This document shows, one piece after another, positions 3,335 through 32,111 of a stretch of DNA of 32,111 nucleotides. The first letter of the stretch is position 1; each line of letters opens with the position of its first letter. The notes beneath the pieces were generated by a model that was not told the DNA's origin, ran no database searches, and worked only from the letters and a program-made list of their open reading frames with translations. The position numbers and the translations under genes are program-made. This DNA is from Hydrogenophilales bacterium CG_4_10_14_3_um_filter_63_21 (lineage in GTDB: Bacteria; Pseudomonadota; Gammaproteobacteria; Burkholderiales; Thiobacillaceae): NCBI GenBank assembly GCA_002784045.1, contig PFJX01000002.1, positions 1 to 32,111 on the forward strand. The letters are read 5' to 3'.

Positions 3335-3426
3335 GCGCCGTTTGTTGGGCCGGCAGGGTACTCGACCTGAATATCCGAAATCGGGTGCGCAGTCGGCGGA
3401 AATTTCATTCCTCAGGCAGGACAGTT

Positions 3427-4026: not shown

Positions 4027-4048
4027 TTGCAAAGAGGGGACTGGAATA

Positions 4049-7167: not shown

Positions 7168-7174
7168 TCAATCT

Positions 7175-7264
7175 GGAAGCGTGGCCGAGCGGTTTAAGGC
7201 ACCGGTCTTGAAAACCGGCGAGGGTTTATCCCCTCCGTGAGTTCGAATCTCACCGCTTCCGCCA
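7175..7264 (+). tRNA. tRNA-Ser(UGA), likely integration site
   Basis: Class II tRNA with a long variable arm. Acceptor GGAAGCG (7175-7181) pairs with CGCTTCC (7254-7260), discriminator G7261, and an encoded CCA at 7262-7264. The anticodon stem CCGGT/ACCGG encloses CTTGAAA with anticodon TGA at 7209-7211. It lies 7 bp after tRNA-Thr. Gene content changes from core to accessory immediately downstream, the usual position of an island inserted at a tRNA 3' end. Confidence 0.95.
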
Positions 7265-10914: not shown

Positions 10915-10922
10915 AAGTCCCC

Positions 10923-11627
10923 GTGAGAGACGACGATGCCCTCTGGGATCTGGTGGAATCCGGCCTGTTCGGCGACCCGTCACTGCACATCGTGGACCAA
11001 GAGGTGGCCGAGGTCACGAACCTGGAGGACGGCGGCGCACCGCGTTATCTGGAAACGCCGGAAATCACGGAAGAAGACTACCTGGAGGAAGAGGAACGCA
11101 TTGCCTTCACCTCCCTGCGCGACCAGGTTCGTCTCTGCTGCAACGTCAACACCAAGCCGGCCGCGCGGGACTCAGCCGTCGAGTGGGTTTTCGTGCCGGG
11201 CACCCGGGACAAACTGGGACTGGACTTCGCCCTCTGCTGCCGCGCCCTGGGCGCGAGGCCTCATCTCATCCAGGTCCGCGCGCTGTATCAGCTCTATATC
11301 CGGCAGATCATTTTCCCGAGGCCTTTGCCTTTTCTGGCGACGCCTCTGCCAGAGTTGCTGGCCTGCGAAATCCTCTACCACTTCGGCGATGAAGAGCTGG
11401 ATGCCGCCAAGGCCGTGTGGTTCTGGCCTGGCATCCGCGCCGACATCCTGCTTGACCGGCTGATGAACAAGATGTCGCGCCCACGTGCCCAGGCCGCAAT
11501 GGAACGCCTCGAAGAGCGTGGCTATGTCGCGCTCTGGAGTGGCTTCTGGTGGTTCACGGGGCGTAACCCCTCCATGTTGTCGCCGTCCTCGCGGGCGCGT
11601 TTCAAATGGTCGGACCAGATCCCATGA
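10923..11627 (+). CDS. Conserved-looking hypothetical protein of the mobilization block
   Basis: A 234-residue protein with a GTG start 8 bp after the coupling protein gene. The N-terminal 60 residues are strongly acidic (EITEEDYLEEEERIAF). The C-terminal part (about 175-220) reads like a winged-helix: a helix LLDRLMNKM, then RAQAAMERLEERGYVALW with an aromatic wing. I do not recognise the family. Its stop (11625-11627) overlaps the relaxase ATG at 11624 as ATGA, so it is translated together with the relaxase and is probably a mobilization accessory protein that binds DNA or the relaxase. Confidence 0.65.
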   Translation: MRDDDALWDLVESGLFGDPSLHIVDQEVAEVTNLEDGGAPRYLETPEITEEDYLEEEERIAFTSLRDQVRLCCNVNTKPAARDSAVEWVFVPGTRDKLGLDFALCCRALGARPHLIQVRALYQLYIRQIIFPRPLPFLATPLPELLACEILYHFGDEELDAAKAVWFWPGIRADILLDRLMNKMSRPRAQAAMERLEERGYVALWSGFWWFTGRNPSMLSPSSRARFKWSDQIP

Positions 11628-13474
11628 AAAATCCCCTGCTCTCGTCTTTCGTGATCGTCACGGTGTTCTGGTACGTGATGTTGGCCATTCCCTCGCGAGC
11701 CCTTCTCCATGAAATCCCCGTCTACGCCCTCAAGGGGCTGTGGATCGCACTGGTCGGGGTTTTCTGGGGCGTGCTCGCGTTTGCCGTGTGGCTGGCTGTG
11801 GTGCGGGGCAACAAGCAGCATGGCCTGAAATCCGGGGACAGCCGGCGTGGGCTATCCATTTCGCTGGGCGATTTCCCACGCGGCGCGCCCCCGCCGGCCA
11901 GGGTTCCTTGCGGCGAGACGTTTCTACCCGAGACGTTCTCGACCTGGTTCACCGCCTACCAGGCCGCACATCCCACCCATGCCGCGCTGATGCGTGCGGT
12001 CATGGAGGTCTACCAGGCGCGCGCCTTGCTCCCTGCCTCGCCCGTGCCCGGCGGGCATGGCGGCGCGACGTTGATGCAGCATTCCCTGAATGTCCTGGCC
12101 ACGATCCTGAACATGGCGCCGTCCTGGCGCTATGACGGCCACAAGAACAAGAAGGGGCAGGTCGTCTTCCCGCTCATCGACGGCACCTACCGCTTCGACG
12201 CGACCGACCCCTTGATCCCCATTGCCGGGTTCGCTCACGACATCGGCAAGATCACCTGCTACCGGCAGCGTGAGGATGGCTTGGTGGAGGAGATTAAGCC
12301 CCACCACGATACCGAGGGCGGCAAGATACTGATCACGCTGGAGGCGTTCTGGGCGCTCCCGAAAGGGGATCGCGACGCGCTCAACCTGGCCCTGTCGTTC
12401 TACCACCACATCAACAGTCTGCCGTTGTGGGCGGACGACAGAACGCGTGCGCTGACGGAGTTGCTCATCACCGCCGATATCCGTACCGGCATGGCCGAGG
12501 GTGAAAAGAACTTGGCCGCCCTGTACGAGGACATCGACGCCTTGCCAGGCTGGCTTGATGGCCAGATGGATGAGGTGATGGCGACGCTTCCGGCGCAACC
12601 CATCCCCGTCCAGGACACACCAGCCGATCACGTGGCCGATGTTGCGGTGGCTCGGGCTGGCTCGGCTCCGGCTGACGAAAACGATGGTTGGGCCTGGGAC
12701 CAGTTCGAGGCCTTGATCCTGGAACCAGGCCGCATCAACGGGAACAACAAGGCCATGCGGGTGGGGTTCAAGCATGGCGAGTGGGTTTACGTGAACGATG
12801 CCGTGCTCAGAACGGCGCTGGCCGCAGCCCTTAATGCGTCCCGCCTGACGGAACAGGCCGGGAGGGGGCAGATGTCGCCATTCACCCGGCTGCTACTGTC
12901 CAGGCTCGCCCGAATGGGTCTGTTGTACCAGCATCACGACGGCCGCGATTTCAGCGAGAAGAGCGCGCTGTTCAAGATGGTGATGCACGGGACGGGCGGG
13001 AAAATCGTCCAGAACTGGGGGTTCACGATGATTTTCAAGGCGACGGCGTTTCCCGTCATCGCCGCGATGCCCGACTGCAAGTACCCGCCGCAGGTTCTTG
13101 GATGTGGCTTCGGTGAGCATCGGGCCATCAACAAATCGGGCAAGCCGGAACCCGAAGCGCCGTCGCAATCCATCGAAGCAGCCAACTCTGGTAACGGAAT
13201 TCCCCTCGATGCGGATGGCATCGAAGGGGCTGTTCACGCGCTGAGGAACGCAATGGCCAGCGCCGAGCCTCCCCAATTCAAGGAACGGACTGACAAGGGT
13301 GGGGTGTGGGCCTGCTACGCCCTGGACACCCTCAAGTCCCGCGTTCCTCTGGCTGGGGGCTGGGATGTGCTGGCCGGAAGCGAGTTGCCAATCGAGGCGA
13401 GCGCCCGCTGGGTGCGCGGCGCCAGCGACCTGTTCCTGTGTCTCTGCATCGGTGAGGCGCCCCATCAAGGTTAG
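11624..13474 (+). CDS. traI: MobH/TraI_2-type HD-domain relaxase with membrane anchor
   Basis: A 616-residue protein. Two membrane helices lie at about residues 5-25 and 38-58. A TraI_2-like region with an HD phosphohydrolase fold follows: GGATLMQHSL (first histidine, near 150), FAHDIGK (the HD pair, near 205), a histidine pair in KPHHDTEGG, another HH in FYHHINSL, and a late aspartate in ITADIRTG. This is the metal-binding arrangement of MobH relaxases such as those of R391/SXT and ICEclc, which nick at oriT. A second domain after about residue 340 (FEALILEPGRINGNNKAMRV and onward) resembles the winged TraI C-terminal module. ATG 11624 overlaps the preceding stop; an ATG at 11606 is possible. 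Membrane helices on a relaxase are unusual. The next gene begins immediately after its stop. Confidence 0.75.
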   Translation: MKNPLLSSFVIVTVFWYVMLAIPSRALLHEIPVYALKGLWIALVGVFWGVLAFAVWLAVVRGNKQHGLKSGDSRRGLSISLGDFPRGAPPPARVPCGETFLPETFSTWFTAYQAAHPTHAALMRAVMEVYQARALLPASPVPGGHGGATLMQHSLNVLATILNMAPSWRYDGHKNKKGQVVFPLIDGTYRFDATDPLIPIAGFAHDIGKITCYRQREDGLVEEIKPHHDTEGGKILITLEAFWALPKGDRDALNLALSFYHHINSLPLWADDRTRALTELLITADIRTGMAEGEKNLAALYEDIDALPGWLDGQMDEVMATLPAQPIPVQDTPADHVADVAVARAGSAPADENDGWAWDQFEALILEPGRINGNNKAMRVGFKHGEWVYVNDAVLRTALAAALNASRLTEQAGRGQMSPFTRLLLSRLARMGLLYQHHDGRDFSEKSALFKMVMHGTGGKIVQNWGFTMIFKATAFPVIAAMPDCKYPPQVLGCGFGEHRAINKSGKPEPEAPSQSIEAANSGNGIPLDADGIEGAVHALRNAMASAEPPQFKERTDKGGVWACYALDTLKSRVPLAGGWDVLAGSELPIEASARWVRGASDLFLCLCIGEAPHQG

Positions 13475-14515
13475 ATGCAACCGGTGAACCCCGTTGATGC
13501 CCTGCTCCAGTTCCGGGCTGGCCAGCTCTCGCGAGAGGGGCTGGCCGGCGCGGTATACCCCTTGCTCAGGCGATTGGCCAAGGCGACTGCATGGAAGGTG
13601 GGTGGCGTGGATGCCGACGACCTCGCGCAGGAACTCTGGCTGACCTTCGAGAAGTCGGTGTTGCACAACTATGAGCCGGGCGTGGCTCTGGAGCCCTACC
13701 TCCTGGTGATCGCCAGGAACGCGGCATTCCAGATGCGCAGCAAGGTCAGGGAGACCCCCTCATTTGACTTGACCTCTGACTTGACCACCGAGGGAGCCGA
13801 TGGCTGCCCCGAACATGAGGATCGGCACACACCGAGTGTTGCCGACGATGGGGTGTGGTCTGATATTGATAGGCGCATTGGTATATTGGAAATCAGGCGT
13901 CGTTTATATAATCTCTCGATGAATGAACCCGATGATGACTCGAAGCAGGCCATGCGAACCCTGGTACTACCTTGCGTGAGGGAAACGGCGATGGCCGCAC
14001 AAGAGAGCGCCCGCTTGCCCGTAATCGAGAAAAAACCGCGCGCACAGCGGGTGCTGCCCCCGGAAAGCCAGGAATTGGTGAGTGTTCGAACCGGCCTGGA
14101 CATGACCCAGGCGGAGTTCGCCGATGCGTTGGGCATTGGTATGCCCCGGCTGGCGTCGTATGAATACGGCAAAGCAACCATTCCGGACTGGGTGATGAAG
14201 TCGGCCCGTGACCTGGCTGACAACAGTGGCAACGCGCTGGAGTCCGGCCGGAAGAAGTACGAAGGCATCCCCATGCCGAAGATACTGGACGGCTGGGCCA
14301 GGGAGCTTGGCGTGCCCTATGACAACAGCCAGGAACTGGCCACCCTGCTGGGCGCCTCGAAGGCCACGGTGACGCGCTGGAAGAACGGCCTCATACGTCC
14401 GCGCCTGAGTGCCTTGCTGCGCTATGAGCACATGGTCAAGGAAGCCAGGAAGAAGCTGGCTAGGCAAAGCGAGTTCGTCGAGCAGTTGGCGGCGGGCAAG
14501 AAAAAGCGCACGTAG
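13475..14515 (+). CDS. Regulator with sigma-70 region-2-like domain fused to two HTH domains
   Basis: A 346-residue protein whose ATG touches the relaxase stop (TAGATG). Residues about 22-95 read as sigma-70 region 2: LLRRLAKATAW, then DADDLAQELWLTF and PYLLVIARNAAFQMRSK, the pattern of ECF factors. There is no clear region 4. Instead, after a variable linker, residues about 200-250 form an XRE-like helix-turn-helix (RTGLDMTQAEFADALGIGMP and RLASYEYGK). A second one lies at about 275-330 (ELATLLGASKATVTRWKNGL). The last residues are lysine-rich. The placement suggests it controls transfer or partner genes of the element. Whether it binds core RNA polymerase cannot be told. Confidence 0.65.
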   Translation: MQPVNPVDALLQFRAGQLSREGLAGAVYPLLRRLAKATAWKVGGVDADDLAQELWLTFEKSVLHNYEPGVALEPYLLVIARNAAFQMRSKVRETPSFDLTSDLTTEGADGCPEHEDRHTPSVADDGVWSDIDRRIGILEIRRRLYNLSMNEPDDDSKQAMRTLVLPCVRETAMAAQESARLPVIEKKPRAQRVLPPESQELVSVRTGLDMTQAEFADALGIGMPRLASYEYGKATIPDWVMKSARDLADNSGNALESGRKKYEGIPMPKILDGWARELGVPYDNSQELATLLGASKATVTRWKNGLIRPRLSALLRYEHMVKEARKKLARQSEFVEQLAAGKKKRT

Positions 14516-14876: not shown

Positions 14877-15075
14877 TGCCCAGTATCCGCACGCCCGCGA
14901 ACCCGACGATGTCGACGAAATCTGCCGCTGCAGCGTCGAACACACCGCAGGTGATCAAGCCTGCGCCATTGAAATCGCCGTTCGACTCGCGGAGTTCTAT
15001 CTCACCCTGTATTTCGCCCCCACTCACTGGTTCGACCTCAAGACCATCCTGAGCATCCAAGACCATCAACCATGA
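14842..15075 (+). CDS. Small protein coupled to the large helicase
   Basis: A 77-residue acidic protein of unknown function with histidine- and cysteine-containing stretches (DDVDEICRCSVEHTAGDQAC) and a hydrophobic helix AIEIAVRLAEFYLTLYF. The upstream in-frame stop excludes a longer form. There is no Shine-Dalgarno match. Its stop overlaps the helicase ATG as ATGA (15072-15075), the same coupling seen between the helicase and the SNF2 gene, and this is the main argument that it is real. It would be the first gene of the defence-like operon and could be a small regulator or subunit. Confidence 0.5.
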   Translation: MTSTAAICATFDAQYPHAREPDDVDEICRCSVEHTAGDQACAIEIAVRLAEFYLTLYFAPTHWFDLKTILSIQDHQP

Positions 15076-18000
15076 ATGTCTTCCAAACCCACGCCCACAT
15101 CGTCTCGGACTATGCGACCTACATTCGCAGTTTCCTGAAGATCGCCGATCCCCAGATTCGTGATGTGGTGGAGGGTGAGTTGAACCAGGGCAAGCTGTGG
15201 CCGGAGCCGCTGTTGCAGTTCAACCCCTCGTTCGAGAGCGGTGGCAGCCTCGACGATCTCACCGCAGACGGCACACTTCATCCTGACATCCGGGACATCT
15301 TCAGGGGCTACTCCCTTTATCGCCACCAGGTCGACGCAATCAAGCTGGGTACAGCCGGCAAGGATTTCATAGTTACTTCCGGCACCGGCTCCGGCAAGTC
15401 GCTGACCTACATCGGCTCGATCTTTCATCACCTTTTGTCCAACCCCGGCGTTCCAGGCGTGGTGGCGGTGGTGGTGTATCCGATGAACGCACTCATCAAT
15501 TCCCAGTTCGATGAGTTCGAGCGTTATCAGAAGAACTACGAAGAGGCCACCGGCAAGCCTTTCCCGATCACCTTCGGCCAATACACCGGGCAGGAGGGTG
15601 AAGACAAACGCGCCAAGATGCGTGAGAAGCCGCCCCAGATCCTGCTCACCAACTACATGATGCTGGAACTGTTGCTGACCCGATTGCGCGAGCGGCCAAT
15701 CCGGAACGGCATCTACCAGAACCTCCGCTTCCTGGTTTTCGACGAACTACATACCTATCGCGGCAGGCAGGGGGCCGATGTAGCCATGCTCATGCGCCGC
15801 ATTCGTGCGCAGTGCGGGCAGCCCGTGGTGTGTATCGGCACCTCTGCGACCATGGTTTCGGTGGGTTCCCTGGCCGAACAGCGTACCGAGGTGGCGAAAG
15901 TGGCGACCATGCTGTTTGGCAAGCCGTTCGCGCCGAACCAGATCATCAACGAGACCCTCGACCGCTCCCTGGCTTACCAAGGCCAGCTTCCGACTCAATC
16001 AGAGATGGCAACCGCCATTGCTGCCGGGATCAATCCGGATGCGGACATCGCTTTGCTCAAGACCCATCCTGTCGCGGTCTGGCTGGAAAACCGGGTTGCT
16101 CTCGATACCCGTGATGGCGTGCTGTTCCGAGGCAAACCCAGACGGATATCGGATATCGTCTCGGATATAGCCGCCGCATCCGGCCAGTCTCCAGAGCACT
16201 GCCGCAAGCACCTCGAAGCCCTGCTCCAGTGGATCAGCCTGGCCAATCAACGCCTTCAGGACGCCGGCCAGCGCTACACCCTGCTGCCCTTCAAGTTGCA
16301 CCAGTTCATCTCCCAGACCGGCTCGGTCTACACCACGCTCGACCAGGATGAGAACCGCCACATCACCCTGGAGCCGGGGGTCTATCTCAAGGGTGACGCC
16401 GACAAGAAACCGATCTTCCCCAACGTCTTCAGCCGTGCCAGTGGACATGCCTTCATTTGTGTCTCCCGCGTCGGCGACAGACTGGAACCACGCGAATTTC
16501 GCGAGCTATCCGAGGACGATGAGGAAACCACCGACGGCTATCTGATCGTCGGTGACGAAGTCTGGGATCCGCTCGAAGACATGGAACTCCTGCCCGAGTC
16601 CTGGTTCCGCGTGACCAAATCGGGTCCGGTGCCGGACACGCGCAAGAAAGCCTTCTTCCCGACCAAGCTCTATTTCGACGAAACGGGGCTTTGTTCCGAG
16701 AGCAAGGCCATGAAGTGGTGGGGCTGGTTCATGAAGGCGCCGCTCCTGTTCGACCCGACCGGCGGGGTGTTCTACGACACCAAGACCAACGAAGGCACCA
16801 AGCTCACCAAGCTGGGCAGCGAAGGCCGCAGCACCTCCACCACCATCACCGCTTTCTCCATCCTCAACCAACTGGACGACGCGGGTTATCGGCAGCAAGA
16901 CCAGAAACTCCTCAGCTTCACTGATAACCGCCAGGATGCCGCGCTCCAGGCCGGCCATTTCAATGACTTCGTTCAGGTCGTGCGCCTGCGTGCAGGCATT
17001 CGAAAAGCGTTGGAGCTGGCATCGGGCCATACGCTGAATTTCGCCAACATCGGCGAAGCCGTGCGACTTGCCATGAACCTGCCGTTCCTGGATTTCGCCA
17101 ACAAGAACGAAGAGCCCGCGCTCGCCCCGGTCAAGCGCAATTACGAACAATCCTTCCAAGAATACCTGGTTTACCGCGCCATCGCCGACCTGCGCCGGAG
17201 CTGGCGCATCGTCCTGCCCAACTTGGAACAGTGCGCGTTGCTCAGCATCGACTACGCGGACCTGGATGAGATCGCCGCCACCGATGAGTTCTGGCGGGCC
17301 ATGCCCTTGCTGAACCAGTTGGATCACGCGGAGCGCAGGGACTTCATCGCCACCATCCTGGATTTCTTCCGCCTCGAATTTGCCATCGAAAGCGAGAACT
17401 ACCTCACGCAATCTCGCATCAAGGAAAACGAAAAACAGTTCCGCGAAATGCTGCGCAGTCCCTGGACACTGGATCGCAACGAGGAACTACGGGAACCCTT
17501 CTTCATTCGCCTCGACCCGCTGCACAAATCTGCCCGGATGTCGTCCAAGAGCATGGGGCCGGCCAGCGCGCTGGGTAAATTCATCAAACTATATGTGCGC
17601 CAGAATGACATCGACATTGATCTTAAAAGTGACAGCTATCGTCGACTTATTGGCGACTTGATGGAGAGGTTGGAAAAAGCCGACTACCTCAAGTCCATGT
17701 CCGCACGTAGCAACGAGAATAAGGAAATCCACGTATATCAACTTCGTCTCGTCAAAATCATCTGGAAGTTGGGCGACGGCAAGACCGTCAAGGCTGATGT
17801 CATCAAGCAGCGCTCCTACAAGGACCAGACGCCAAGGCCTAACGAATTCTTCCAGGCCCTGTACCAGCGTGACTTCGCCAAGGCTAAGCGCTTACGAGGC
17901 GAGGACCACACCGGCCAACTCGGCACCGAAACCCGCATCGAGCGGGAGGATCTGTTCCGCCAGGGCCAGATCAGCGCACTGTTCTGTTCACCCACCATGG

Positions 18001-20185
18001 AGCTGGGCATCGACATCGGCGGTCTCAGCGTGGTCCACCTGCGCAATGCCCCGCCCAATCCGTCCAATTACGCCCAGCGCGCGGGGCGGGCTGGCAGAAG
18101 CGGGCAGGGCGCGCTGATCTTCACCTACTGCTCCAGTTACGCCCCCCACGACCGACACTATTTCAAGGAACAGGAAGCCCTGGTGGCGGGCGCGGTCATG
18201 GCGCCCCGGCTGGATCTGTGCAACCGGGAACTGCTGGCTTCTCACCTCAATGCCCTGGCCGTTTCCCGCCTCGGCCTGCCCGGCCTGGAAGGCGGCAATG
18301 GTCTTAGCCCATCAATCATGCGACTGGTGGTGGATGACAACGACAAACTACCGTTGGCCTCCGAAGTCCGTGCTGGTCTGGAGATTTCACCCACCCAGTT
18401 CAGCGAGCTAAAAGCCACCTTCAAACGCGTCATCAAGGACTTCGAGCCCGCGCTTTCAGCCAACGCGGCGACCTGGTACTCCGACCAGTGGATCGAACAG
18501 AACCTGTCCAAGATCGCGGATCACCTGGATAGCGCGCTTGTGCGTTGGCGGCGGCTGTACCGTTCCGCCCGCACCATCCTCAGCCGCGCCACCCAGCAGA
18601 TCGAAAGCGGCACCCTCAGCCTGGGCAGCGACGAATACCGCAAGCATAAGCGCAACCAGGACCAGGCCACGCGCCAGCTCGATCTGTTGCGCAACGATCT
18701 GAAAGGCAAATCGGCCGAACTCTCCGAGTTCTATCCGTATCGCTACTTTGCTTCGGAAGGTTTTCTGCCCGGCTACAACTTCACCCGCCTGCCAATTCGC
18801 GTCTTCCTGCCCAGCAACGACACCGCCGGTGAGTTCATTTCGCGCCCGCGTTCCATCGCCCTGCGCGAGTTCGGCCCGCAGAACATCATCTATCACAACG
18901 GCCGCAAGTACCGTGTTTGCCAACTGGTGGTGCAAGACGCCGAGTCGGCGCTGACCGAAGCCAAGCTCAGTATCAAGGCGGGCTACTTCCTCACCGGAGA
19001 ACAAAAGGACCTGGAGATCTGCCCCTTCTCCGGTCTCAACCTGGGCGATGCCGTCAACAAGGAGCACTTACACAACCTCATGGAGATGGCCGAGTCCCGT
19101 GCCGAGGAGATCGATCGCATCACGTGCGAGGAAGAAGAACGCCGTTCCCGGGGCTACAACATCCGCACCTATTTCTCCGTCGATGGCGGCCATCTGGAAC
19201 GGGTTCGCAAGGCCGTGGCGCGCTCCAGTGAAAGCGTCCTGCTCAACCTGCGTTACATACCTGCGGCCCGTCTGATTCACGTCAATCGCCAATGGCGGGC
19301 GCGCCATGACGAAGGATTTCCCATCGGCCTGATCTCAGGTGACTGGCGTAGCGCCATGCCGGGGCCGGAGAGCAACCTCAAGGAGGAATTCCGCCTGGTG
19401 AAGCTGTGGACCTCCAACCTGGCCGATGTGCTCTACATTGAGCCGATCCAGCCGCTGGGACTCAAGCCGGACGGCGTCATCACGTTACAACACGCCCTCA
19501 AACGGGCCATCGAAGGCGTCTTTCAGGTCGAGCCGAATGAAATCGGGGTGGTCGCCGTGGGCGATCCAGAAGCCCCAAGCATCCTGATCTACGAGGCGGC
19601 CGAAGGCAGCCTTGGCATCCTCTCCCAGTTTGTCGACGACGTGACCGTATTCCACCAGGTTGTTGAAGAAGCCCAACAGATTTGCCGCTTCGACGACGCC
19701 GAATACAAAGGACCGGCCAGCTACGACGATCTGCTCAGCTACTTCAATCAGCGCGACCACAAGATTATCGACCGCCACCTGATCCAGGACGCCCTGGAAA
19801 AGCTGCGCATCTGCACCATCGAGATTCAGACCAACACCGGCTACGCCAGCTACGAAGAGCAAAACCAGGCCCTGCGGCGCGGCCTCGACCCCAACTCTTC
19901 CACCGAGCGCAAGTTCATCGACTACCTCTACGCCAATGGCCTGCGCCTGCCTGATTCCGCCCAGAAGCGTGTCGATGGCATCTACGTGCAACCGGATTTT
20001 TATTACGAACCGCGCATCTGGGTCTTTTGCGATGGCACGCCACATGACCAGCCCGCGGTTCAGGCCGATGACGAAGCCAAGCGACAGGCCATCATGGCCA
20101 AGGGGGATGAGGTCTGGGTCTACTACTACAAAGACAACCTCGCCGAGAAAGTTGCGGCGCGCCCAGACATCTTCAGGAAGGTGAA

Positions 20186-20189
<4 letters not shown>
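15072..20189 (+). CDS. Giant DEAD-box/DUF1998 helicase with C-terminal Vsr-like nuclease domain
   Basis: A 1705-residue superfamily 2 helicase. RecA domain 1 (about 80-330) has Q-motif-like YRHQVDAI, Walker A SGTGSGKS (103-110), DELH (224-227) and SAT (258-260). A long insert follows, including LSFTDNRQDAALQAG, typical of the MrfA/YprA/DruE helicase group. RecA domain 2 carries CSPTMELGIDIGG and QRAGRAGR (1002-1009). A DUF1998-like module lies near 1440-1560 (LQHALKRAIEG, then ILIYEAAEGSLGIL). The last 100 residues look like a Vsr/PD-(D/E)XK nuclease: E1612, D1642 in QPDFYYE, D1654 in WVFCDGTPHD. No CxxC pairs of the MrfA cluster are seen. In DISARM the helicase DrmA and the DUF1998 protein DrmB are separate; here both parts are in one chain. 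DruE of Druantia is the other relative. It overlaps the following gene by 4 bases. Confidence 0.8.
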
Positions 20190-23095
<2,906 letters not shown>

Positions 23096-23106
23096 AGGCC
23101 CAATTC

Positions 23107-24516
23107 ATGACCACGACTCCGGAACAAATCGACCTCTGGCGGCAACTTCCGTCTGAAACCCAGCGACTGGAGTTCAAGGAAGGCAAGAACCAGTACGACA
23201 CTCGCAAACTTCACAAGTATTGCGTGGCGCTGGCCAACGAAGGCGGTGGCTATCTACTGCTTGGCATCGCCGATAAACCGCCCCGTGCCGTGGTGGGTAC
23301 ACAAGCGTTTACCGACACCATCGTCACAGCCGAGAAGCTCTTTCAAGCCCTGGGCTTTCGGGTGGACATCGAAGAAGTCGCCCATCCAGATGGCCGGGTG
23401 CTGGTCTTCCACATTCCCCCCCGGCCACGCGGCACGGCCTACCACCTGGAGGGTGCCTACCTGATGCGATCTGGTGAGGAACTGGTGCCCATGAGCGAGG
23501 ACCAGTTGCGCCGGATATTTTCAGAAGGCGAACCGGACTGGCTGGAAGAGCACACCAGAACAGGTCTGGATGGCGGAGAAGTGGTCGAACTGCTGGATAC
23601 CCAGGGCTTTTTTGAACTCCTCAAACAGCCCTATCCCACGGATCGTTCAGGCGTGGTTGACCGCCTGAAACGTGAACGCCTGCTCGATGAGACAGCCAAC
23701 GGCTATGCCATCCGCCGCTTGGGCGCGCTGCTTCTGGCGAAACGCCTGGTGGACTTTCCGGATATGGAACGCAAGGCGCCGAGAGTCGTGGTCTACACCG
23801 GCACCTCCAAGCTCGAAACCCGGCTCGACTACACCGCGCCCAAGGGCTACGCGGTCGGCTTCCAGGATTTGATCGGCTTTGTCATGAGCCAGCTTCCTCA
23901 GAACGAGGTCGTCGAGAACGCGTTGCGCCAGGAGATGAAACTGGTGCCCGACATCGTCATCCGCGAATTGGTCGCCAACGCCCTCATTCATCAGGATCTA
24001 TCGGTGACCGGCGCGTCAGTGATGATCGAAATATTTAGTAACCGAGTGGAGATTTCGAACCCGGGCGAACCGATCGTCCCGGTTGAGCGTTTCATCGACG
24101 GCTATCAGTCTCGCAACGAGCGCCTTGCCGACCTGATGCGCCGAATGAACATCTGCGAGGAGAAAAGCAGCGGCATCGACAAAGTGGTCCATGCCGCCGA
24201 GGTGTACCAGTTGCCCGCCCCGGACTTTCGTGCCGGACACCGCAGAACCGTGGCCACCCTCTACGGCCCCCGGCAGTTCGAAGACATGGATCGAGAGGAT
24301 CGAATCCGTGCCTGCTATCAGCACTGCGCCTTGAAATGGGTGATGTCCGAGCGGATGACCAACCAATCCCTGCGCGAGCGTTTCGGCCTGCCAGAAAGCA
24401 AGAGCGCCATCGCCTCCCAGGTCATTGCCGCCACCATCGAGGTAGGAATGATCAAGCCGGATGAACGGGTAGGCGCCTCGCGCAAGTTCGCTCGCTACCT
24501 GCCGTTCTGGGCATGA
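23107..24516 (+). CDS. AlbA_2 (Schlafen-like) domain protein with GHKL-type ATPase domain
   Basis: A 469-residue protein. Residues about 18-135 form an AlbA_2 domain: LEFKEGKN (E22, K24), then KYCVALANEGGGYLLLGIAD, a pattern shared with the Slfn AlbA_2 fold, which in some families cuts or binds RNA. Residues about 280-365 resemble the HATPase_c_4 (GHKL) module: ELVANALIHQDLS with N-box-like residues, NPGEPIVPVERF, then EEKSSGIDKVV. A winged-helix-like C-terminus follows. Proteins of this build are usually called transcriptional regulators, but many also lie in defence loci. It sits inside the helicase-methyltransferase cluster and shares the transcript upstream, so it may be a nucleic-acid effector or a regulator. 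The 131-bp gap after it suggests a separate promoter for the methyltransferase. Confidence 0.75.
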   Translation: MTTTPEQIDLWRQLPSETQRLEFKEGKNQYDTRKLHKYCVALANEGGGYLLLGIADKPPRAVVGTQAFTDTIVTAEKLFQALGFRVDIEEVAHPDGRVLVFHIPPRPRGTAYHLEGAYLMRSGEELVPMSEDQLRRIFSEGEPDWLEEHTRTGLDGGEVVELLDTQGFFELLKQPYPTDRSGVVDRLKRERLLDETANGYAIRRLGALLLAKRLVDFPDMERKAPRVVVYTGTSKLETRLDYTAPKGYAVGFQDLIGFVMSQLPQNEVVENALRQEMKLVPDIVIRELVANALIHQDLSVTGASVMIEIFSNRVEISNPGEPIVPVERFIDGYQSRNERLADLMRRMNICEEKSSGIDKVVHAAEVYQLPAPDFRAGHRRTVATLYGPRQFEDMDREDRIRACYQHCALKWVMSERMTNQSLRERFGLPESKSAIASQVIAATIEVGMIKPDERVGASRKFARYLPFWA

Positions 24517-24647: not shown

Positions 24648-27600
24648 ATGACCTACCCCAGCATCCGCATCGAAGGGGCCATCCTCTCGCCGGACATCCT
24701 CGAACGCCTCGACGATGCCCCCGGCCAGCGCCCCGCCGACTTTGGCCTAGATGGCAGCGGCAAGGTCAAGGACGAGATCGCGCGCGCCTGGGCCGATGCC
24801 CAGGACTACTGGCGCATCTTCCAGCGCAAGCTCGACACCCTCAGACCCGAAGCTCCGGCCACCACCGAAACCCGCAACCTCTGGATCACCCCCTTGCTCG
24901 GCCTGCTCGGCTACCAGCTCGAATACCAGGCCAAGGGCGTCGAACTCAACGGCAAGACCTACCCCATTTCCCACCGTGTAACCAATCGCGGTAACACACC
25001 CATCCACATCATCGGCACCCGCGAACCCGCCGGGCTGGACCGCAAGCCGGATCGCACCCGATTTGGCCAAACATTTGGCGCGCCGCGCATGTCCGCCCAC
25101 GCCCTGGTGCAGGAATACCTCAACCTGCACGACGAGCTGTACGGCCTGGTCAGCAACGGCCGCATCCTGCGCCTGCTGCGCGACAGTTCCCGGCTGATCA
25201 AGCTCAGTTATCTGGAATTCGACCTCGACCGCATCTTCACCGACGGCCTGTTCGCCGACTTCGCGGTGCTCTATCGGCTGCTCCACGTCACCCGCCTGCC
25301 AGTCAGCAATGAGGCGGCGGCGGAAAGCCTGATCGAGCGTTACCACCAGGATTCCCTCGACTCCGGCGCCCGCATCCGCGAGGGCCTGAGCAAGGCGGTG
25401 GAACAAGCCATCCGCGACTTCGCCAACGGCTTTCTCGCCCACCCGGCCAATGACACCCTGCGGCAATCCATCGCGGAAGGGCGCCTGCAATCGGATACCT
25501 ACTACCAGCACCTGCTGCGCCTGATCTATCGGCTGCTGTTCCTTTTGGTGATCGAAGAACGCGACCTCGTCTTCCCGCCCTCGGCCACCAATGCACAACG
25601 CGACATCTACCGGCGCTACTACAGCCTGGATCGCCTGCGCCGGCTTTCGGAAAAGCGCCACCTCGCCGACAAACGCCACCACGACCTCTGGCTGGCCCTG
25701 CTCGCCAACTTCCGCCTGTTCGAAGCTCACGGGCCGGGCGAAAAGCTCGGTCTCGCGCCGCTGGCCGGTGACCTGTTCAACCCAGCTGCCATCGGCCCTC
25801 TGGCCGGCTGCATGTTGGGCAACGACGTCCTGCTCGGCTGCCTGCGCGCCCTCGGGCTCTATCAACATCCAGACAACGGTCAGACCATCCGCGTCAACTA
25901 CGCCGCCCTCAACGTAGAGGAATTCGGCTCAGTCTACGAAGGCCTGCTGGAATACCAACCGGTCTTTATCACCACCAACAATCGTCCGGAATTTACCTTC
26001 GCCCAAGGCGACCAGCGCGCCGCCACCGGCTCCCACTACACCCCGGACGACCTGGTCCAGCCCCTCATCAAGCACTCGCTCGACTACCTCATCGCCGACA
26101 AGCTCAAGGCGCCCGACCCGGAACAAGCCCTGCTCGACCTGCGCGTTGCCGACATCGCCTGCGGTTCCGGCCACATCCTGCTCGCTGCCGCCCGCCGCAT
26201 CGCTACCGAACTGGCCATCGTCCGCACCGGTGAGGAACAACCCTCGCCCTCGGCCTTCCGCGCCGCCATCCGCGATGTCATCCGCCACTGCATCTACGGC
26301 GTGGACTTGAACCCGCTCGCCGTCGAACTGTGCAAGGTCGCCCTCTGGCTAGAAGCCCACAACCCTGGCGAGCCGCTCAACTTCCTCGACCACCACATCA
26401 AATGCGGCAACGCTATCGTCGGCTTCGCCCGGCGCGAGGAAGCCGAACGCGGCGTACCCGACGCAGCCTTCGCCAGCCAGCCCGGCGACGATAAGGAAAC
26501 CGCAGCGCTGCTGAGAAAGCGCAACAAGCAGGAACGCAAGGACCACGAGACTGGCCAACTCCCGCTTGCACCGGCCTTGCAGAAACAACTCGACGACATC
26601 CTGCGCGGTTGGCGAGAACTCGCCACCCTGCCGGAACACACCCCCGACCAGATTGAAGCCAAGAAGACCCGCTACCTCGCCTTCAGCCAGAGCCAGGACG
26701 CCTGGTTCCTGAACCAGATCGCCGCCATCCCCATTGCCCAGTTCTACCTACCCAAGACACCGGAGAACCTGCCGAAATTCATCACCGACGCCGCTTACCG
26801 GCGCTACTGGCAAGGCGAGGTCAGCCCGCAAGGCCAGGCCACCGCCGAGGCCTGGGCGATGGCGGAGCGCAAGCGTTTCTTCCATTGGTTTCTGGAGTTC
26901 CCGGAGATCATCGGGCGGGGTGGGTTTGACTGCATTCTGGGGAATCCGCCATACAAAGGGGGCCAAGACTTGAGCGGCTTCTATGGCCATGCCTTTTGCG
27001 AATACGTGAAATGGGAATTCGCACCGGCGGGTCTGTCTGACTTGGTGGCCTATTTCGTCCGCCGTCTGTATGCCTTGCTGCGCCCTGGTGGTTTTACTGC
27101 CTTCATCACCACCAATTCCATCAAGGACGGCGACGTTCGTAAGGACGGGCTGGAACAGGTGTTGAAGCAGGGCGGCGCGATCAACATGGCCGTGCGCGGC
27201 ATCAAGTGGCCGGGGCGGGCAAAGCTCGTGGTGGCGCTGGTTGCCCTGCACAAAGGTGAATGGTGCGGAAGACGGGTGCTGGACGGCAAGGACGTAGCAG
27301 TAATCAACGCTTACTTCGAAGACAGCGAAGATGCGGGGGAACCCGCGCCGATACCAGAAAACGGCAATCGTATTTTTATGGGGTCGATTTTCTTGGGCGA
27401 TGGCTTCTTGCTAGACCGACAGGAGTCAGAGTTCTTCCGCAAAGAGCCGAAGAACGTTACAGCAATATTCCCATTGCTGAACGGCCAAGAAGTCAACTCG
27501 CACCCGCTTCAAGTTCCTTCGCGTTGGATCATTAATCTTGAGGACTGTGAAACACTCGAACAGGCGGAATTGAAGTACCCGCAGCTTCTAGAGCGAATAC

Positions 27601-28427
27601 GTGAAAAGGTATTGCCAGACCGTCTTGCACAGAAAAACGAGGGTGCAAAACGCTGGTGGTGGAGATATTACCGATATAACAAACTTTGCTACGACAACCT
27701 GGACGCTATAGGTAAGTGCTTTTTGGCAGCTCGTACTACGAAGCACCTATCGTTTTCGCAAACCGATAGCGGCAAGATATTTACTGACGCAGTTTATGTA
27801 TTCACCACCGACCGCTGGGACCTCTACGCAGTCGTCCAATCCGCCCTGCACGAGGTCTGGGCACGCAAATACAGCGGCGCATTGAAGCAGGATTTGCGCT
27901 ATTCACCGTCGAACTGCTTCGACACCTTCCCCTTCCCCGAAGGCCTCTGGCAAACCCCGCACCCCGCCCTGGCCAACCTCGGCGCCGCGTACCACGAACA
28001 CCGCCGCGTCCTCATGCGCCAACTCTGGCTCGGCCTCACCGACATCTACAACCTGTTCCACACCCGCGACCTCACCCCCGCCCAGGTCGCCAAGGTCAGC
28101 AAGAAATCCATTGAAGAAGCCGAAGCCGGCTACCAGGGCATCCTCGAACTGCGCCGCCGCCACCGCCAACTCGACGAAGCCATCCGCGACGCCTACGGCT
28201 GGATCGATCTCAACCTCGGCCACGACTTCCACGAAGTCGAAACCCTCCCCGATAACGACCGCGTCCGCTACACGATCAGCCCCGCCGCCCGCAAGGAAGT
28301 CCTCAAACGCCTCCTGGCCGAAAACCACCGTCGCGCCGCAATTCAGGAGCCGGCCGTCGTCAAGCCAACCGCGAAGAAGCGCGGCAGGAAATCAGCCGTG
28401 AGCGAAGCCAATGGCGAGCTGTTCTGA
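24648..28427 (+). CDS. Eco57I-type N6-adenine DNA methyltransferase, DrmMI-like
   Basis: A 1259-residue class I methyltransferase of the large single-chain type found in class 1 DISARM (DrmMI), PglX/BREX and type IIG enzymes. An N-terminal helical region (about 1-330) contains segments common in this group, such as SAHALVQEYLNLHDELYGLV and LEFDLDRIF. The SAM-binding motif I DIACGSG is at 502-508 and the catalytic motif IV NPPY at 766-769. The rest is target recognition and a C-terminal helical part. I see no convincing nuclease active site. Bases about 27290-27800 are clearly poorer in GC (44 against 64 percent in samples), suggesting a replaced recognition domain. The start at 24648 has no strong ribosome site. 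It is likely driven by its own regulatory gap and marks host DNA as self. Confidence 0.85.
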   Translation: MTYPSIRIEGAILSPDILERLDDAPGQRPADFGLDGSGKVKDEIARAWADAQDYWRIFQRKLDTLRPEAPATTETRNLWITPLLGLLGYQLEYQAKGVELNGKTYPISHRVTNRGNTPIHIIGTREPAGLDRKPDRTRFGQTFGAPRMSAHALVQEYLNLHDELYGLVSNGRILRLLRDSSRLIKLSYLEFDLDRIFTDGLFADFAVLYRLLHVTRLPVSNEAAAESLIERYHQDSLDSGARIREGLSKAVEQAIRDFANGFLAHPANDTLRQSIAEGRLQSDTYYQHLLRLIYRLLFLLVIEERDLVFPPSATNAQRDIYRRYYSLDRLRRLSEKRHLADKRHHDLWLALLANFRLFEAHGPGEKLGLAPLAGDLFNPAAIGPLAGCMLGNDVLLGCLRALGLYQHPDNGQTIRVNYAALNVEEFGSVYEGLLEYQPVFITTNNRPEFTFAQGDQRAATGSHYTPDDLVQPLIKHSLDYLIADKLKAPDPEQALLDLRVADIACGSGHILLAAARRIATELAIVRTGEEQPSPSAFRAAIRDVIRHCIYGVDLNPLAVELCKVALWLEAHNPGEPLNFLDHHIKCGNAIVGFARREEAERGVPDAAFASQPGDDKETAALLRKRNKQERKDHETGQLPLAPALQKQLDDILRGWRELATLPEHTPDQIEAKKTRYLAFSQSQDAWFLNQIAAIPIAQFYLPKTPENLPKFITDAAYRRYWQGEVSPQGQATAEAWAMAERKRFFHWFLEFPEIIGRGGFDCILGNPPYKGGQDLSGFYGHAFCEYVKWEFAPAGLSDLVAYFVRRLYALLRPGGFTAFITTNSIKDGDVRKDGLEQVLKQGGAINMAVRGIKWPGRAKLVVALVALHKGEWCGRRVLDGKDVAVINAYFEDSEDAGEPAPIPENGNRIFMGSIFLGDGFLLDRQESEFFRKEPKNVTAIFPLLNGQEVNSHPLQVPSRWIINLEDCETLEQAELKYPQLLERIREKVLPDRLAQKNEGAKRWWWRYYRYNKLCYDNLDAIGKCFLAARTTKHLSFSQTDSGKIFTDAVYVFTTDRWDLYAVVQSALHEVWARKYSGALKQDLRYSPSNCFDTFPFPEGLWQTPHPALANLGAAYHEHRRVLMRQLWLGLTDIYNLFHTRDLTPAQVAKVSKKSIEEAEAGYQGILELRRRHRQLDEAIRDAYGWIDLNLGHDFHEVETLPDNDRVRYTISPAARKEVLKRLLAENHRRAAIQEPAVVKPTAKKRGRKSAVSEANGELF

Positions 28428-28449: not shown

Positions 28450-30114
28450 ATGCTTGAAGACGTTTACGAATGCAATTCCACGCGGGTGTGGCCAGACATG
28501 CAGGCGCGTGTCACCGGGGGCTCGCCGTGTTTACCCCCCTTCGGCCCAAAACTCTCCGCCTGCGAATACGCCTTCCTCGCCGTTGCTGTCCCGAACCGCG
28601 ACTTTGTGGGTTGGCTTGAGCACATCTGGTCGAATGCGCGCCGGCAGGCGCGATGGGAAGTCGTACTTGCCCTCGATCCCAGATATGGCACCCGCGATAC
28701 CGGTGAGGTGCTCGCCCGAGTTTTCGCGTTGCAGGCCGCCAGCCAGGGTCGCCTCAGCGCGCGCCTGCTGACCCCTGGAAAACTGTCTGGGGCAGCGCCG
28801 CGACTTGGTCTCGCCATTCTTTGTGTCCCAGGAGAACCCGTAAGCGCTTCGGTTGGCTCGTCCCCCGCTTTCGGCCTCGATGTCCCATCCGCTGGGGATG
28901 TGAATCTCTGGATCACGCTGTCGGCGAGTGAAATCAACGATATTCGCCAACTCGCCCGTGCCTATTGGGAGACTGCGGCGGAGTTGACCAAGGCACGCTG
29001 CGAAGTCCCCTTGCTTGAACCCTGCCGTGGCAACGAGGAGGGGTACATTCATTGGCAGGCATTCGAGTCGATGCTCAGCGATAGCCCCGACCTATTCATG
29101 CAGCCCGGCACATCGATCAATGATCTGCCGCTGACCCCGGATGGCCGCCTGGATGAAAGTGCGATCACTTCCACTGAAACAGCCTCTCCCGCACTTGCTG
29201 TTTACGTGCCTACAATTCCATCGGTGGTCGACAACATTCAGTCGCTGTATTCGCAAGGGGCATTGGTTTCCGTGCAACACAAGGTCAAGCCAATGTCGGT
29301 ACCGATCCCGGCTTCCCTGTTCGGCCAGCAGGGTGAACAACAGATCGGTACAGTACGCTACAAACAACAATTTCGGATTGAGCTCTTCGCAGATGAAGCC
29401 ACTGCCAAGGAAGTGGAAGAGCAGCGAAAGCGAGTGACCAAGTTGGTGCAGCTTTTCAGCTATTCGTTTGGCACCGGCAAATATTGGGTGCCTAACACGG
29501 CGAGAGCCGCGCTCAATGCCGCGATAGATGTGGCGGGAGAACAATCACAATCCACACTCAGTACCGCATACGGTGGCGATCTAGACAAGTTTCTTGAGGG
29601 GCGACGTGCTGCCATCAAGCAAGACTTGGAGAACATTTACCAGCGTTTCTACCCGAACACTGCCATGCCTTCGGGTTCCCTGGAAAAAGTCTTACAGCTA
29701 CTGCGAGACCGGGTGGACGGGGCCAAGAAAGAAGGGCTGGCACAAAAGATTACATCGACCTTGATCTCATTCCGCTTCGCCAATGACGCCAGGGAGGACC
29801 CATGGAGCGATGCGGTCCAACTACTATCAAGGATCGCAGTGCGGCCAAGGGAACTGCTTGTCGATAACTTCAAGCGACGTGAATTAAAGATTGCGAACAT
29901 CTCCGTTCCGGACTACCTGAAGGCGATGGATGTCATGGGGGATGCGCTTGTGGAGCTTGCATTTGATAAGGGCTGTGAGTCGCCTTGGGTCATCGATCGG
30001 GCACGTGGGGAAATGGCGATGCTGGTTGCTTGGGAAGTAAGCGACGAGCCAGGCGATGAACGATGCAGGAAACTCATAGACCTGATCAAGGGGACGATAA
30101 CAACTTATGACTGA
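28450..30114 (+). CDS. Protein with degenerate phospholipase-D-like domain, DrmC-like position
   Basis: A 554-residue protein following the methyltransferase by 22 bp, with a GAGAGAAG ribosome site. Residues about 38-185 have the layout of a PLD-fold (HKD) half: a strand with AFLAVAVPNRDF, then LGLAILCVPGEPVSASVGSS and VNLWITLSASEINDIRQLA, the place where PLD proteins show HxK(x4)D and GSxN. Here the expected His and Lys are about P117 and L119, and GSSN is GSSP, so it should be catalytically dead. The C-terminal two-thirds (190-554) I do not recognise; it has a helical part EVEEQRKRVTKLVQLF and VEELAFDKGC-like ends. DISARM class 1 has a PLD protein, DrmC, so this may be its divergent counterpart. 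The next gene start, ATG 30107, overlaps its end but is decayed. Confidence 0.6.
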   Translation: MLEDVYECNSTRVWPDMQARVTGGSPCLPPFGPKLSACEYAFLAVAVPNRDFVGWLEHIWSNARRQARWEVVLALDPRYGTRDTGEVLARVFALQAASQGRLSARLLTPGKLSGAAPRLGLAILCVPGEPVSASVGSSPAFGLDVPSAGDVNLWITLSASEINDIRQLARAYWETAAELTKARCEVPLLEPCRGNEEGYIHWQAFESMLSDSPDLFMQPGTSINDLPLTPDGRLDESAITSTETASPALAVYVPTIPSVVDNIQSLYSQGALVSVQHKVKPMSVPIPASLFGQQGEQQIGTVRYKQQFRIELFADEATAKEVEEQRKRVTKLVQLFSYSFGTGKYWVPNTARAALNAAIDVAGEQSQSTLSTAYGGDLDKFLEGRRAAIKQDLENIYQRFYPNTAMPSGSLEKVLQLLRDRVDGAKKEGLAQKITSTLISFRFANDAREDPWSDAVQLLSRIAVRPRELLVDNFKRRELKIANISVPDYLKAMDVMGDALVELAFDKGCESPWVIDRARGEMAMLVAWEVSDEPGDERCRKLIDLIKGTITTYD

Positions 30115-30323: not shown

Positions 30324-32111
30324 ATGGAAGTTAATCCGGAAAAACAGAATATCGACAAATTATTCTCGACAACAAATTATTACATTGACTTCTATCAGCG
30401 GGAATACAAGTGGGAGAACAGCGAGGTAAAGACACTGCTCGAAGATATTTTCTATCATTTCGAACAGTCTTACACGTTGCATCCAGACCTGGATGCAACG
30501 GAAGCCAATGTGTCCACAAAGTATTCGTGGTATTACCTGAATACCTATATAACAAACAGAAACCAAGTAGATAAGCGGACATTCATTGTTGATGGTCAAC
30601 AACGTCTTACCACGCTCACCTTGTTGCTCATTGTGCTATATCGATTGTGTGCAGTTGAACAACTAAATTCACCCGATTTGCGCGACTGGCTAAAGGCCAA
30701 AATTGTAGGAATCGGAGTGGGGGGCAAGAAGCAATTCTGGATGGCGCATGATAAACGTGAAGCCCTGATGCAAGCTTTGTTTAATGGGGATGCGCCATCT
30801 GATAATTTAATCAGTGATGGAATAACTGCGCGTCACATGATTGATAATCATGCACTGCTTTACAAAGAATTATCAGCAAGGCTGACCTCTCGCCACAAAC
30901 TGGATACGTTTATTTATTACTTTTTGTGCCAAGTTGTCATCATCAATCTTGAAGTGGCACAAACCGATGTTCCTATGATATTCGAGGTGATAAACGATCG
31001 CGGCAAGCGGTTGCAGTCCTATGAAATTCTAAAGGGCAAGTTGCTAGGGGAAATAGATAAGGCAGAAGTTGATCATTACGCCGATATCTGGGATTCATCG
31101 CTTCGTAATCTGGAGTCAAGATCAGAGGGCGAAGTCGACGACTTCTTTCGTACTTATCTTCGTGCCCATTTTTCCGAAACACGAAAACAAGGCCAGATAT
31201 TTGATGGGCCATATCATCGGTCGATTTTCGAAGATACCTGCAATAAATCGCTTCACCTGAAGGCTGATGCCACAGGAGTGAAGAGCTTCCTGAAAGGTTC
31301 TTTCCGTTACTACGCTGGATTATTTCTCAAACTTCGCCAGCTTGGTGAAGACTCTAAATCTACCATTCCTGAGTGCTACTACCTGTCACAGCTCAACCGG
31401 ATGGATGGTCATATCATGTTGGCGCTTGCAGCATGCGGGGTGGACGATAAATTTGAAGATGCAAAGATACGTGCGGTAGCCAGGGCATTTGATCGCGCAT
31501 ATGTGATGCTTCAATTCAATCGTGCCTATGATAGCAATCAGTTTCAGGAGCTGCTTTACACACTACATCCAGTTTTACGAGATTGCCCGGCCGATGAGAT
31601 TGAATTGCGCATAGATGAAAAGGTGCTTGCGGATATTAATCAAAGACGTAATGCTGATGCCCAGACATTATTGTCCTATGGACAGTTTAAGCAAGTCGGT
31701 TATGGCGACTATAACCCGACTTTTCTTAGGTATTACCTTGCAAGAATAGAATCGTATATCGCCAACGGATTGGGTGAGGGGCTTAAAGATACGTTGTATA
31801 ATTTTGTTCGAGGCATAGGAAAAGGAAATGCCTACCATATTGAACATATCTTGGCTCGCAATGATGAAAGTCGCGCCTTGTTTGTAAATGAAGCTGGTGA
31901 TTTTGACGATGCAAAATTTGAGAACGAGCGTAACAGGTTTGGCGGACTGCTTCTTCTGAAAGGCCAGGACAATCAATCATCGGGAGCGGAGGATTATTGC
32001 GATAAACTTAAGACTTATACACCTGAATCCGCAAGTTCAATGACCAGCCCCACCCCATACCCAAGAAATGGGCATTTTTTTGCCGCCTCACCCTCCGGTT
32101 GCGTCGAAACA
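30324..32111 (+). CDS. DUF262/DUF1524 (GmrS/GmrD-like) protein, open to the window edge
   Basis: No stop occurs from ATG 30324 (ribosome site AGAGGA at 30311-30316) to the right edge, 596 codons. The N-terminal half carries the DUF262 ParB-like signature FIVDGQQRLTTL (DGQQR at 90-94) and the usual NDRGKRLQSYEILKGKLL (from N224). The C-terminal half has the DUF1524 HNH-type signature IEHILARND (E507, H508) followed by the expected FENERNRFGGLLLLKGQ. Such proteins include GmrSD, which cleaves modified phage DNA, and many uncharacterised defence nucleases. It is AT-rich (about 42 percent GC in a sample) and so a recent arrival. Family likeness ends at about DKLKTYTPE (near 32036). The last 75 bases give SMTSPTPYPRNGHFFAAS, which does not look like this family, and they contain a terminator-like hairpin, so the gene may be truncated. 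Confidence 0.8.
   Translation, partial: MEVNPEKQNIDKLFSTTNYYIDFYQREYKWENSEVKTLLEDIFYHFEQSYTLHPDLDATEANVSTKYSWYYLNTYITNRNQVDKRTFIVDGQQRLTTLTLLLIVLYRLCAVEQLNSPDLRDWLKAKIVGIGVGGKKQFWMAHDKREALMQALFNGDAPSDNLISDGITARHMIDNHALLYKELSARLTSRHKLDTFIYYFLCQVVIINLEVAQTDVPMIFEVINDRGKRLQSYEILKGKLLGEIDKAEVDHYADIWDSSLRNLESRSEGEVDDFFRTYLRAHFSETRKQGQIFDGPYHRSIFEDTCNKSLHLKADATGVKSFLKGSFRYYAGLFLKLRQLGEDSKSTIPECYYLSQLNRMDGHIMLALAACGVDDKFEDAKIRAVARAFDRAYVMLQFNRAYDSNQFQELLYTLHPVLRDCPADEIELRIDEKVLADINQRRNADAQTLLSYGQFKQVGYGDYNPTFLRYYLARIESYIANGLGEGLKDTLYNFVRGIGKGNAYHIEHILARNDESRALFVNEAGDFDDAKFENERNRFGGLLLLKGQDNQSSGAEDYCDKLKTYTPESASSMTSPTPYPRNGHFFAASPSGCVET
32060..32081 (+). terminator. Terminator-like hairpin with T tract
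   Basis: CCCA (32060-32063) and TGGG (32069-32072) enclose AGAAA and are followed by CA and seven T (32075-32081). The stem is short. If real it lies inside the apparent reading frame of the DUF262 gene, which argues that the frame is not genuine there. Confidence 0.3.

Follow-up and report, generated by a model that had tools for sequence, protein, structure and literature searches.

Genomic context of the operon

The window analysed here is one whole contig of 32,111 bases from a 3.03 Mb assembly, and its forward strand carries an operon-like run of genes for a helicase, an SNF2 helicase, an AlbA_2/HATPase_c_4 protein, a methyltransferase, a 554-residue protein and a GmrSD-type protein. The gene at 15072..20189 encodes a YprA-family (DruE-like) helicase of 1705 residues, which belongs to a clade that appears to be zinc-free and has a predicted nuclease fused at its C-terminus. 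This gene shares four bases with the next, at 20186..23095, whose product is a BrxHII/RapA-like SNF2 helicase of 969 residues, classed as DpdE/DrmD-like by family scans. An accessory gene at 23107..24516, encoding a protein of 469 residues with Schlafen AlbA_2 and HATPase_c_4 domains, separates the SNF2 helicase from a PglX-like DNA methyltransferase of 1259 residues at 24648..28427, which the same scans describe as MmeI-like/DrmMI-like. Directly 3' of the methyltransferase lies the gene for the 554-residue protein (28450..30114), which has no Pfam, PADLOC or NCBIfam match at the thresholds applied, and the run ends with the GmrSD-type gene (30324..32111), truncated by the contig end. On a Caballeronia plasmid (L076) a DUF262 gene likewise lies 3' of the operon.

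Encoded 5' of the operon (9160-14515) are a coupling protein resembling TraD (PADLOC mad8; NCBIfam SXT_TraD below cut-off), a protein lacking any match, one that matches the HD domain weakly, and a sigma-70/HTH protein. Genes for tRNA-Thr and tRNA-Ser (7095-7264) are flanked on one side by the cytochrome bc1 genes (3385-5272) and on the other by those for the coupling protein and for defence, and because of this placement the tRNA-Ser gene may be a point of insertion.

Accessory genes vary among the related operons. A gene of the type seen in L042 occupies the same place as the AlbA_2/HATPase_c_4 gene in L033, L034, L037, L043, L046 and L052, with a fragment in L050; the domain assignment was checked with Pfam in L033, L042 and L046. 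The copy in the window resembles only the gene of L040, and weakly (32% over 138 residues). A DUF2326/SMC-like ATPase gene is often found 3' of the methylase in ARMADA I operons, at 27312-29282 in L075, where the Pfam match to DUF2326 stays below cut-off, and also in L116, L117, L122, L125, L127, L128 and L130-L132. The main text of PMC12458937 (Bell et al., 2025, preprint), which describes the ARMADA systems, contains neither the word Schlafen nor the terms DUF2326 and SMC.

Domain architecture of the helicase

The best PADLOC family for the 1705-residue protein is DruE3 (2.1e-81), and Pfam finds the DEAD, Helicase_C and MZB domains. The RecA1/DEAD domain spans approximately residues 81-265 (15312..15866, forward strand, as for all features of this protein), with GTGSGKS at residue 104, FDELH at 223 and GTSAT at 256; the RecA2/Helicase_C domain covers residues 940-1011 (17889..18104), with QRAGRAGR at 1002. 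A Pfam match to MZB/DUF1998, the MrfA-type zinc-binding domain, covers residues 1472-1538 (19485..19685) and precedes the nuclease domain. The closest solved chain is 9tu7, a DEAD/DEAH helicase of 2108 residues (1.1e-42), which we take to be a DruE from its length. Scanning viral contigs with the helicase returned no relative.

A predicted nuclease domain at the C-terminus

The last part of the protein, residues 1607-1705 (19890..20186, followed by the stop codon), is a predicted Vsr/DUF559-like PD-(D/E)XK nuclease domain. The initial annotation had pointed to E1612 (19905-19907), D1642 of a PDF motif (19995-19997) and D1654 of a CDG motif (20031-20033) as having the spacing of such nucleases; all are present within this domain, which also contains H1658 of the extended CDGxxH motif (20043-20045) and D1667 (20070-20072). 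The conservation check proposed there for E1612, D1642 and D1654 came out in favour of the assignment, as these residues are the same in every sequence of both alignments made. Across 22 close sequences, consisting of the window and 21 homologues of 71-92% identity, E1612, P1641, D1642, F1643, D1654, G1655, H1658 and D1667 are invariant, and all of these except P1641 are also invariant across 25 rows (8 from the clade and 17 from outside it) that reach down to 22% identity, an alignment that leaves out seven homologues with a degenerate or absent domain (L057, L058, L068, L082, L084, L086 and L087). Among homologues found afterwards, L095 has G at position 1667, and others include intact domains; L050, whose nuclease sequence contains a stretch of N, was excluded from the nuclease counts. 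The domain is under strong purifying selection, with dN/dS of 0.029-0.125 over residues 1600-1705 in eight pairs, next to 0.035-0.087 over residues 1-1600. The sequence of the window domain lacks two residues of related nucleases: the lysine of (D/E)xK and the glutamate of the DUF559 ExDG motif.

The family link was examined with profiles. Within 25 members, Pfam detects DUF559 in 17 (best 3.1e-6) and MTES_1575 in 7 (best 6.7e-7). Vsr proper was considered as the family and set aside, with the Pfam Vsr model found in just one of the 25 (E 0.07); we use the label Vsr/DUF559-like because DUF559 and MTES_1575 fit better. Aligned with hhalign, the 25-row profile matches 11 DUF559 proteins at a probability of 95% (E 1.7e-8) and 11 Vsr proteins at 87% (E 3.7e-6), each E value being for one comparison, and places E1612, D1642, D1654 and H1658 opposite the E, D, D and H of DUF559. 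The domain of the window alone has no Pfam match, no Pfam nuclease family is found in any of 22 clade members, and a profile built from the clade alone gives 4% with DUF559, in unchanged register, and 1% with Vsr; the link to these families therefore passes through the distant homologues.

An AlphaFold2 model of residues 1570-1705 has moderate confidence (mean pLDDT 68.7, pTM 0.65), and a Foldseek search with it returned 243 matches, none at E <= 0.001. With the same model, the first-ranked VIA-align 2 match is I-Bth0305I (3r3p; Z 7.8, rmsd 3.0, 89 residues aligned), followed at ranks 2-4 by mitoribosomal chains (Z 6.6-6.9), then by NGO0050 (3hrl; Z 6.4, rmsd 3.3, 84 aligned) and Vsr (1vsr; Z 6.2, rmsd 2.8, 87 aligned), and further by VRR_NUC entries (Z 6.0 and 5.5) and two TnsA entries (Z 5.5), all of them below a Z of 8, a range that the tool describes as common. 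Seven of the ten best matches are entries that we take to be PD-(D/E)XK nucleases. We regard a PD-(D/E)XK fold as likely for the C-terminal domain, and the nuclease assignment of the initial annotation is supported at the level of sequence by the conservation, the DUF559 and MTES_1575 matches of relatives and the profile matches.

A helicase clade lacking proposed zinc ligands

The initial annotation had remarked on the lack of a visible CxxC metal cluster; we find no CxxC motif anywhere in the 1705 residues, and this property is common to the whole clade to which the protein belongs. Three zinc sites can be proposed for the relatives from their conserved Cys/His pattern. Site A has cysteines at 454 and 457 (16431..16442; serines in the window) and at 561 and 564 (16752..16763; D and G in the window). 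The four cysteines of site B, at 1300, 1303, 1317 and 1320 (18969..19031), are S, A, C and S here, and the ligands of the DUF1998 site C, at 1539, 1546, 1550 and 1553 (19686..19730), are H, C, C and C in relatives and R, K, S and D here. The fourth ligand of site C is a histidine in the present alignment, where PMC12458937, in the sections consulted, gives a four-cysteine cluster for the family. A model of residues 1075-1705, which includes former zinc sites, reached a mean pLDDT of 47.1 and a pTM of 0.37.

A contig scan of genomes returned 24 loci, 23 of them at 64-94% identity, and the next relatives found beyond the clade range down to approximately 27-42%. By the labels of the records, most of which are metagenome-assembled genomes, the clade spans alpha-, beta-, gamma- and deltaproteobacteria, Nitrospirales, a Kuenenia genome, Schlesneria, Latescibacterota and Fibrobacteres; two plasmids, of Paraburkholderia dioscoreae (strain Msb3, L075) and Caballeronia, carry homologues at 67-68% identity. 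No CxxC motif occurs in any clade row, and full-length homologues from outside the clade have 4-9; Deinococcus radiodurans R1 has a homologue of the zinc type (WP_010883981.1). At ten of the twelve ligand positions the residue is absent from all of the 25-27 clade rows with a letter there (28 rows in total); one row of 27 keeps it at 1539, and all 27 keep it at 1317. In the 50 non-clade rows, where one protein is sometimes represented by two pieces and partial rows are counted wherever they have a letter, the ligand (H at 1539, C elsewhere) is found in every such row, 44-47 of 44-47 per position. No intermediate between the two types was found among these 28 and 50 rows.

A tree was computed from 63 helicases with lengths of 1600 residues or more, leaving out the nuclease and the cysteine-rich columns; in it all 23 zinc-free proteins fall into a single clade (support 1.0). 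Outside it, the helicases of E. coli ARMADA II and DruE3 retain nine and six CxxC motifs respectively, and for this reason the loss of ligands looks derived: the clade appears to have lost 11 of the 12 ligands of the three proposed zinc sites, one of which is the DUF1998 cluster. Contacts of the R1539-D1553 type possibly replace the zinc cluster. The full-length clade proteins hold 13-19 cysteines, counted from stop to stop, among them invariant C1317 and C1538. One assembly (G351, a draft with 6% contamination) holds both a zinc-free helicase (L060) and a partial one of the zinc type (L072). The two partner proteins are uninformative on zinc, as no conserved CxxC pair is found in them in either the clade or the non-clade group.

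In the parts of PMC12458937 covered, Dpd alone is described as having lost the DUF1998 cluster. No zinc-free ARMADA was found in the literature searched by titles and the openings of abstracts.

Nuclease decay and a downstream HNH gene

The C-terminal domain is decayed in several relatives, with the E and PD replaced and DGxxH gone; in one lineage such decayed copies persist at near full domain length. Nineteen helicases were scored as decayed, and the sequence 3' of the operon was examined for 15 operons, a set that excludes L058 and L114, which lie at contig ends, and L105, whose flank is absent from the set; the genome of L105 has an HNH gene on another contig. An HNH_2-type gene lies 3' of the operon in 14 of these 15, compared to 1 of 11 intact operons. 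The decayed operons with the gene include eleven (L116-L126) and L087 from Sphingobium sp. RSMS, together with those of Hydrogenimonas (L134) and Acinetobacter soli (L136). Pfam HNH_2 was found in all eight of the downstream proteins scanned, and a profile made from seven of these HNH proteins finds the gene in all twelve of L116-L126 and L087. The exception is Candidatus Chlorohelix (L082/L135), which has EVE and DUF2357 genes 3' of the methylase and no HNH gene. Including L086, a decayed helicase that lacks the other two genes nearby and whose locus of 20.9 kb is free of an HNH gene, the count becomes 14 of 16.

The intact set consists of the window, L075, L076, L077 and L127-L133. Within it L129 also carries an HNH gene, and L130, the locus of L095, gives a weak HNH match (6.2e-5); L095 is degenerate by the residue pattern, since one of five residues differs, but is counted as intact. 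L099 and L109 fell outside the pattern scoring and were classed separately. The eleven decayed operons L116-L126 and seven of the intact ones were hand-picked from search matches. Fisher's test gives p = 9.6e-6 for 12 of 12 against 1 of 11 and p = 2.1e-5 for 14 of 15 against 1 of 11, values that overstate the evidence, as 12 of the 14 decayed helicases in the tree share one branch (support 0.898; L082 and L084 are separate) and the independent events are thus few.

A search of 14 whole clade genomes for the HNH protein, run without a positive control, gave no matches. When applied with controls to 11 other genomes, the search matched six, all with decayed helicases; none of the five clade genomes in this set, one of which (G030) is probably that of L042, was matched. 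The term HNH appears in the main text of PMC12458937 within a reference title only.

Such a distribution of the HNH gene would be expected if cutting is the task of the fused domain and a protein encoded apart can take its place; the two behave as if they were interchangeable, judging from gene content. The proposal of the initial annotation that a nuclease of its own would let the helicase destroy DNA without a separate endonuclease thereby gains support of an indirect kind, from the decayed relatives, most of which have an HNH gene 3' of the operon.

Discussion

Taken together, the data make it quite probable that the window encodes an ARMADA Type I YprA-family helicase-nuclease whose last 100 residues or so form a Vsr/DUF559-like domain that would do the cutting, and that the motor of this clade is zinc-free. 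In the model that we propose, the methyltransferase and the SNF2 helicase would distinguish host from foreign DNA, as in DISARM and BREX-like systems. The YprA motor would load on phage replication DNA that is single-stranded or tailed and translocate along it, and the tethered nuclease would then cut the phage DNA; this sequence of loading, translocation and cutting is modelled on DruE, a helicase-nuclease whose loading, according to the parts of PMC13192584 covered, takes place on 3' single-stranded DNA. E1612, D1642, D1654 and H1658 would lie in or near the metal site, and the clade motor would work with non-metal residues at its three former zinc sites, that of the DUF1998 cluster included.

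The invariance of the catalytic-type residues, throughout the clade and in almost every relative with an intact-looking domain, bears on the alternative that the domain has a PD-(D/E)XK fold and is catalytically dead, or serves as a DNA-binding or structural module, while another protein cuts, either the GmrSD-type protein or the methyltransferase. Decayed copies that stay near full length in one lineage show that the fold can persist without catalysis, the Vsr domains of Druantia I and II are described as inactivated in the parts of PMC12458937 covered, and a GmrSD-type gene begins 3' of the operon at 30324. However, strong purifying selection on the domain speaks for a working enzyme, as does the HNH gene, which accompanies most decayed operons and is missing from most intact ones; we therefore regard a dead domain as fairly unlikely. 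That the tail is no nuclease at all, but has an unrelated fold whose motif resembles that of a nuclease by chance, would agree with the lack of a Pfam match for the sequence itself, the moderate model and the non-significant Foldseek result, but it sits badly with the residue conservation, the DUF559/MTES_1575 matches in homologues, the hhalign alignment that brings E, D, DG and H into register with DUF559, and the share of PD-(D/E)XK nucleases in the best VIA matches (7 of 10). This explanation seems very improbable.

The missing cysteines could also be ascribed to the hosts, through a general shortage of zinc or avoidance of cysteine, rather than to a change in the helicase lineage. Several clade members are labelled as groundwater or sulfur-, iron- or nitrogen-cycling bacteria, which would suit such a cause. 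Against it, the clade spans phyla, its full-length proteins retain 13-19 cysteines, with C1317 and C1538 among the invariant ones, and G351, with the reservations given above on its contamination and on the partial L072, has copies of both types; a host-level cause of the ligand loss, whether zinc shortage or avoidance of cysteine, is unlikely.

On a broader scale, we lean slightly towards the view that an ARMADA lineage which crosses phyla and is also borne on plasmids was rebuilt zinc-free on a single branch, its nuclease kept under strong selection, and that other ARMADA I lineages took the reverse course, keeping zinc and losing the fused nuclease to an HNH_2 protein whose gene lies 3' of the operon. 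If this is true, motor and cutter are separately exchangeable parts. The published defence class, in which the role of the nuclease is predicted, would gain a natural set of variants: the zinc-free helicases bear on the need in translocation for the DUF1998 zinc cluster, said to characterize the YprA family, and the lineages that seem to swap the Vsr-like nuclease for an HNH protein suggest that the nuclease is the effector.

Relationship to ARMADA and other defence systems

The combination of a helicase with a Vsr-type nuclease is already known from ARMADA (PMC12458937), so that novelty does not lie in the nuclease. Neither the zinc-free clade nor the apparent exchange for an HNH protein is described in the sections of PMC12458937 consulted. 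According to these sections, ARMADA Type I is defined by the order of a YprA homologue, a BrxHII-like helicase and a PglX-like methyltransferase, and in ARMADA I and II the YprA homologue has a C-terminal Vsr-type nuclease that is predicted to be active. ARMADA II is reported there to protect E. coli, with protection abolished or reduced by mutations of the Walker motif and of the methylase; the mutants listed in the protection section, which tests ARMADA II only, include none of the nuclease.

The window has the gene order of ARMADA Type I, with an accessory gene inserted between the second and third genes, and by sequence it has the Vsr-type nuclease fused C-terminally to the YprA homologue. 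The zinc modules typical of Type I, among them a beta-barrel insert and the DUF1998 cluster, are described as typical of the type and not as its definition, and 11 of the 12 proposed ligands are replaced in the window. We file the window as an ARMADA I variant because its gene order and sequence are otherwise those of ARMADA I. In the tree it falls among Type I-like operons, and E. coli ARMADA II and DruE3, each represented by one sequence, lie apart from it; branching within the Type I-like group is weakly supported.

The operon thus shares with ARMADA Type I, as described in the sections consulted, the order of its genes and the Vsr-type nuclease at the C-terminus of the YprA homologue, and differs in lacking all three proposed zinc sites and in the AlbA_2/HATPase gene before the methylase. 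With ARMADA Type II of E. coli ATCC 8739 (L090) it has in common the same three core proteins and the same helicase family; the Type II locus, by contrast, has a different gene order and an additional UvrD-type helicase, retains nine CxxC motifs and is only distantly similar. The window domain resembles the DUF559/Vsr endonucleases in the E, D, DG and H that stand in register with DUF559, and probably in fold, judging from the neighbours of its moderate-confidence model; unlike them it is fused to a helicase and lacks the E that DUF559 has two residues before DG. The relationship to Druantia is seen in DruE3 as the best PADLOC family of the helicase, whereas the DruE of Druantia type III, in the parts of PMC13192584 covered, has PLD-type nucleases and acts with DruH; family scans named no type-specific Druantia partner among the neighbouring genes. 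DISARM has as its separate PLD nuclease DrmC (PMC12458937, sections consulted), which was not named among the window genes scanned. The operon is like DISARM in its DrmD-like SNF2 helicase and its MmeI-like (DrmMI-like) methylase, and unlike DISARM in that the helicase and the DUF1998 part form a single protein.
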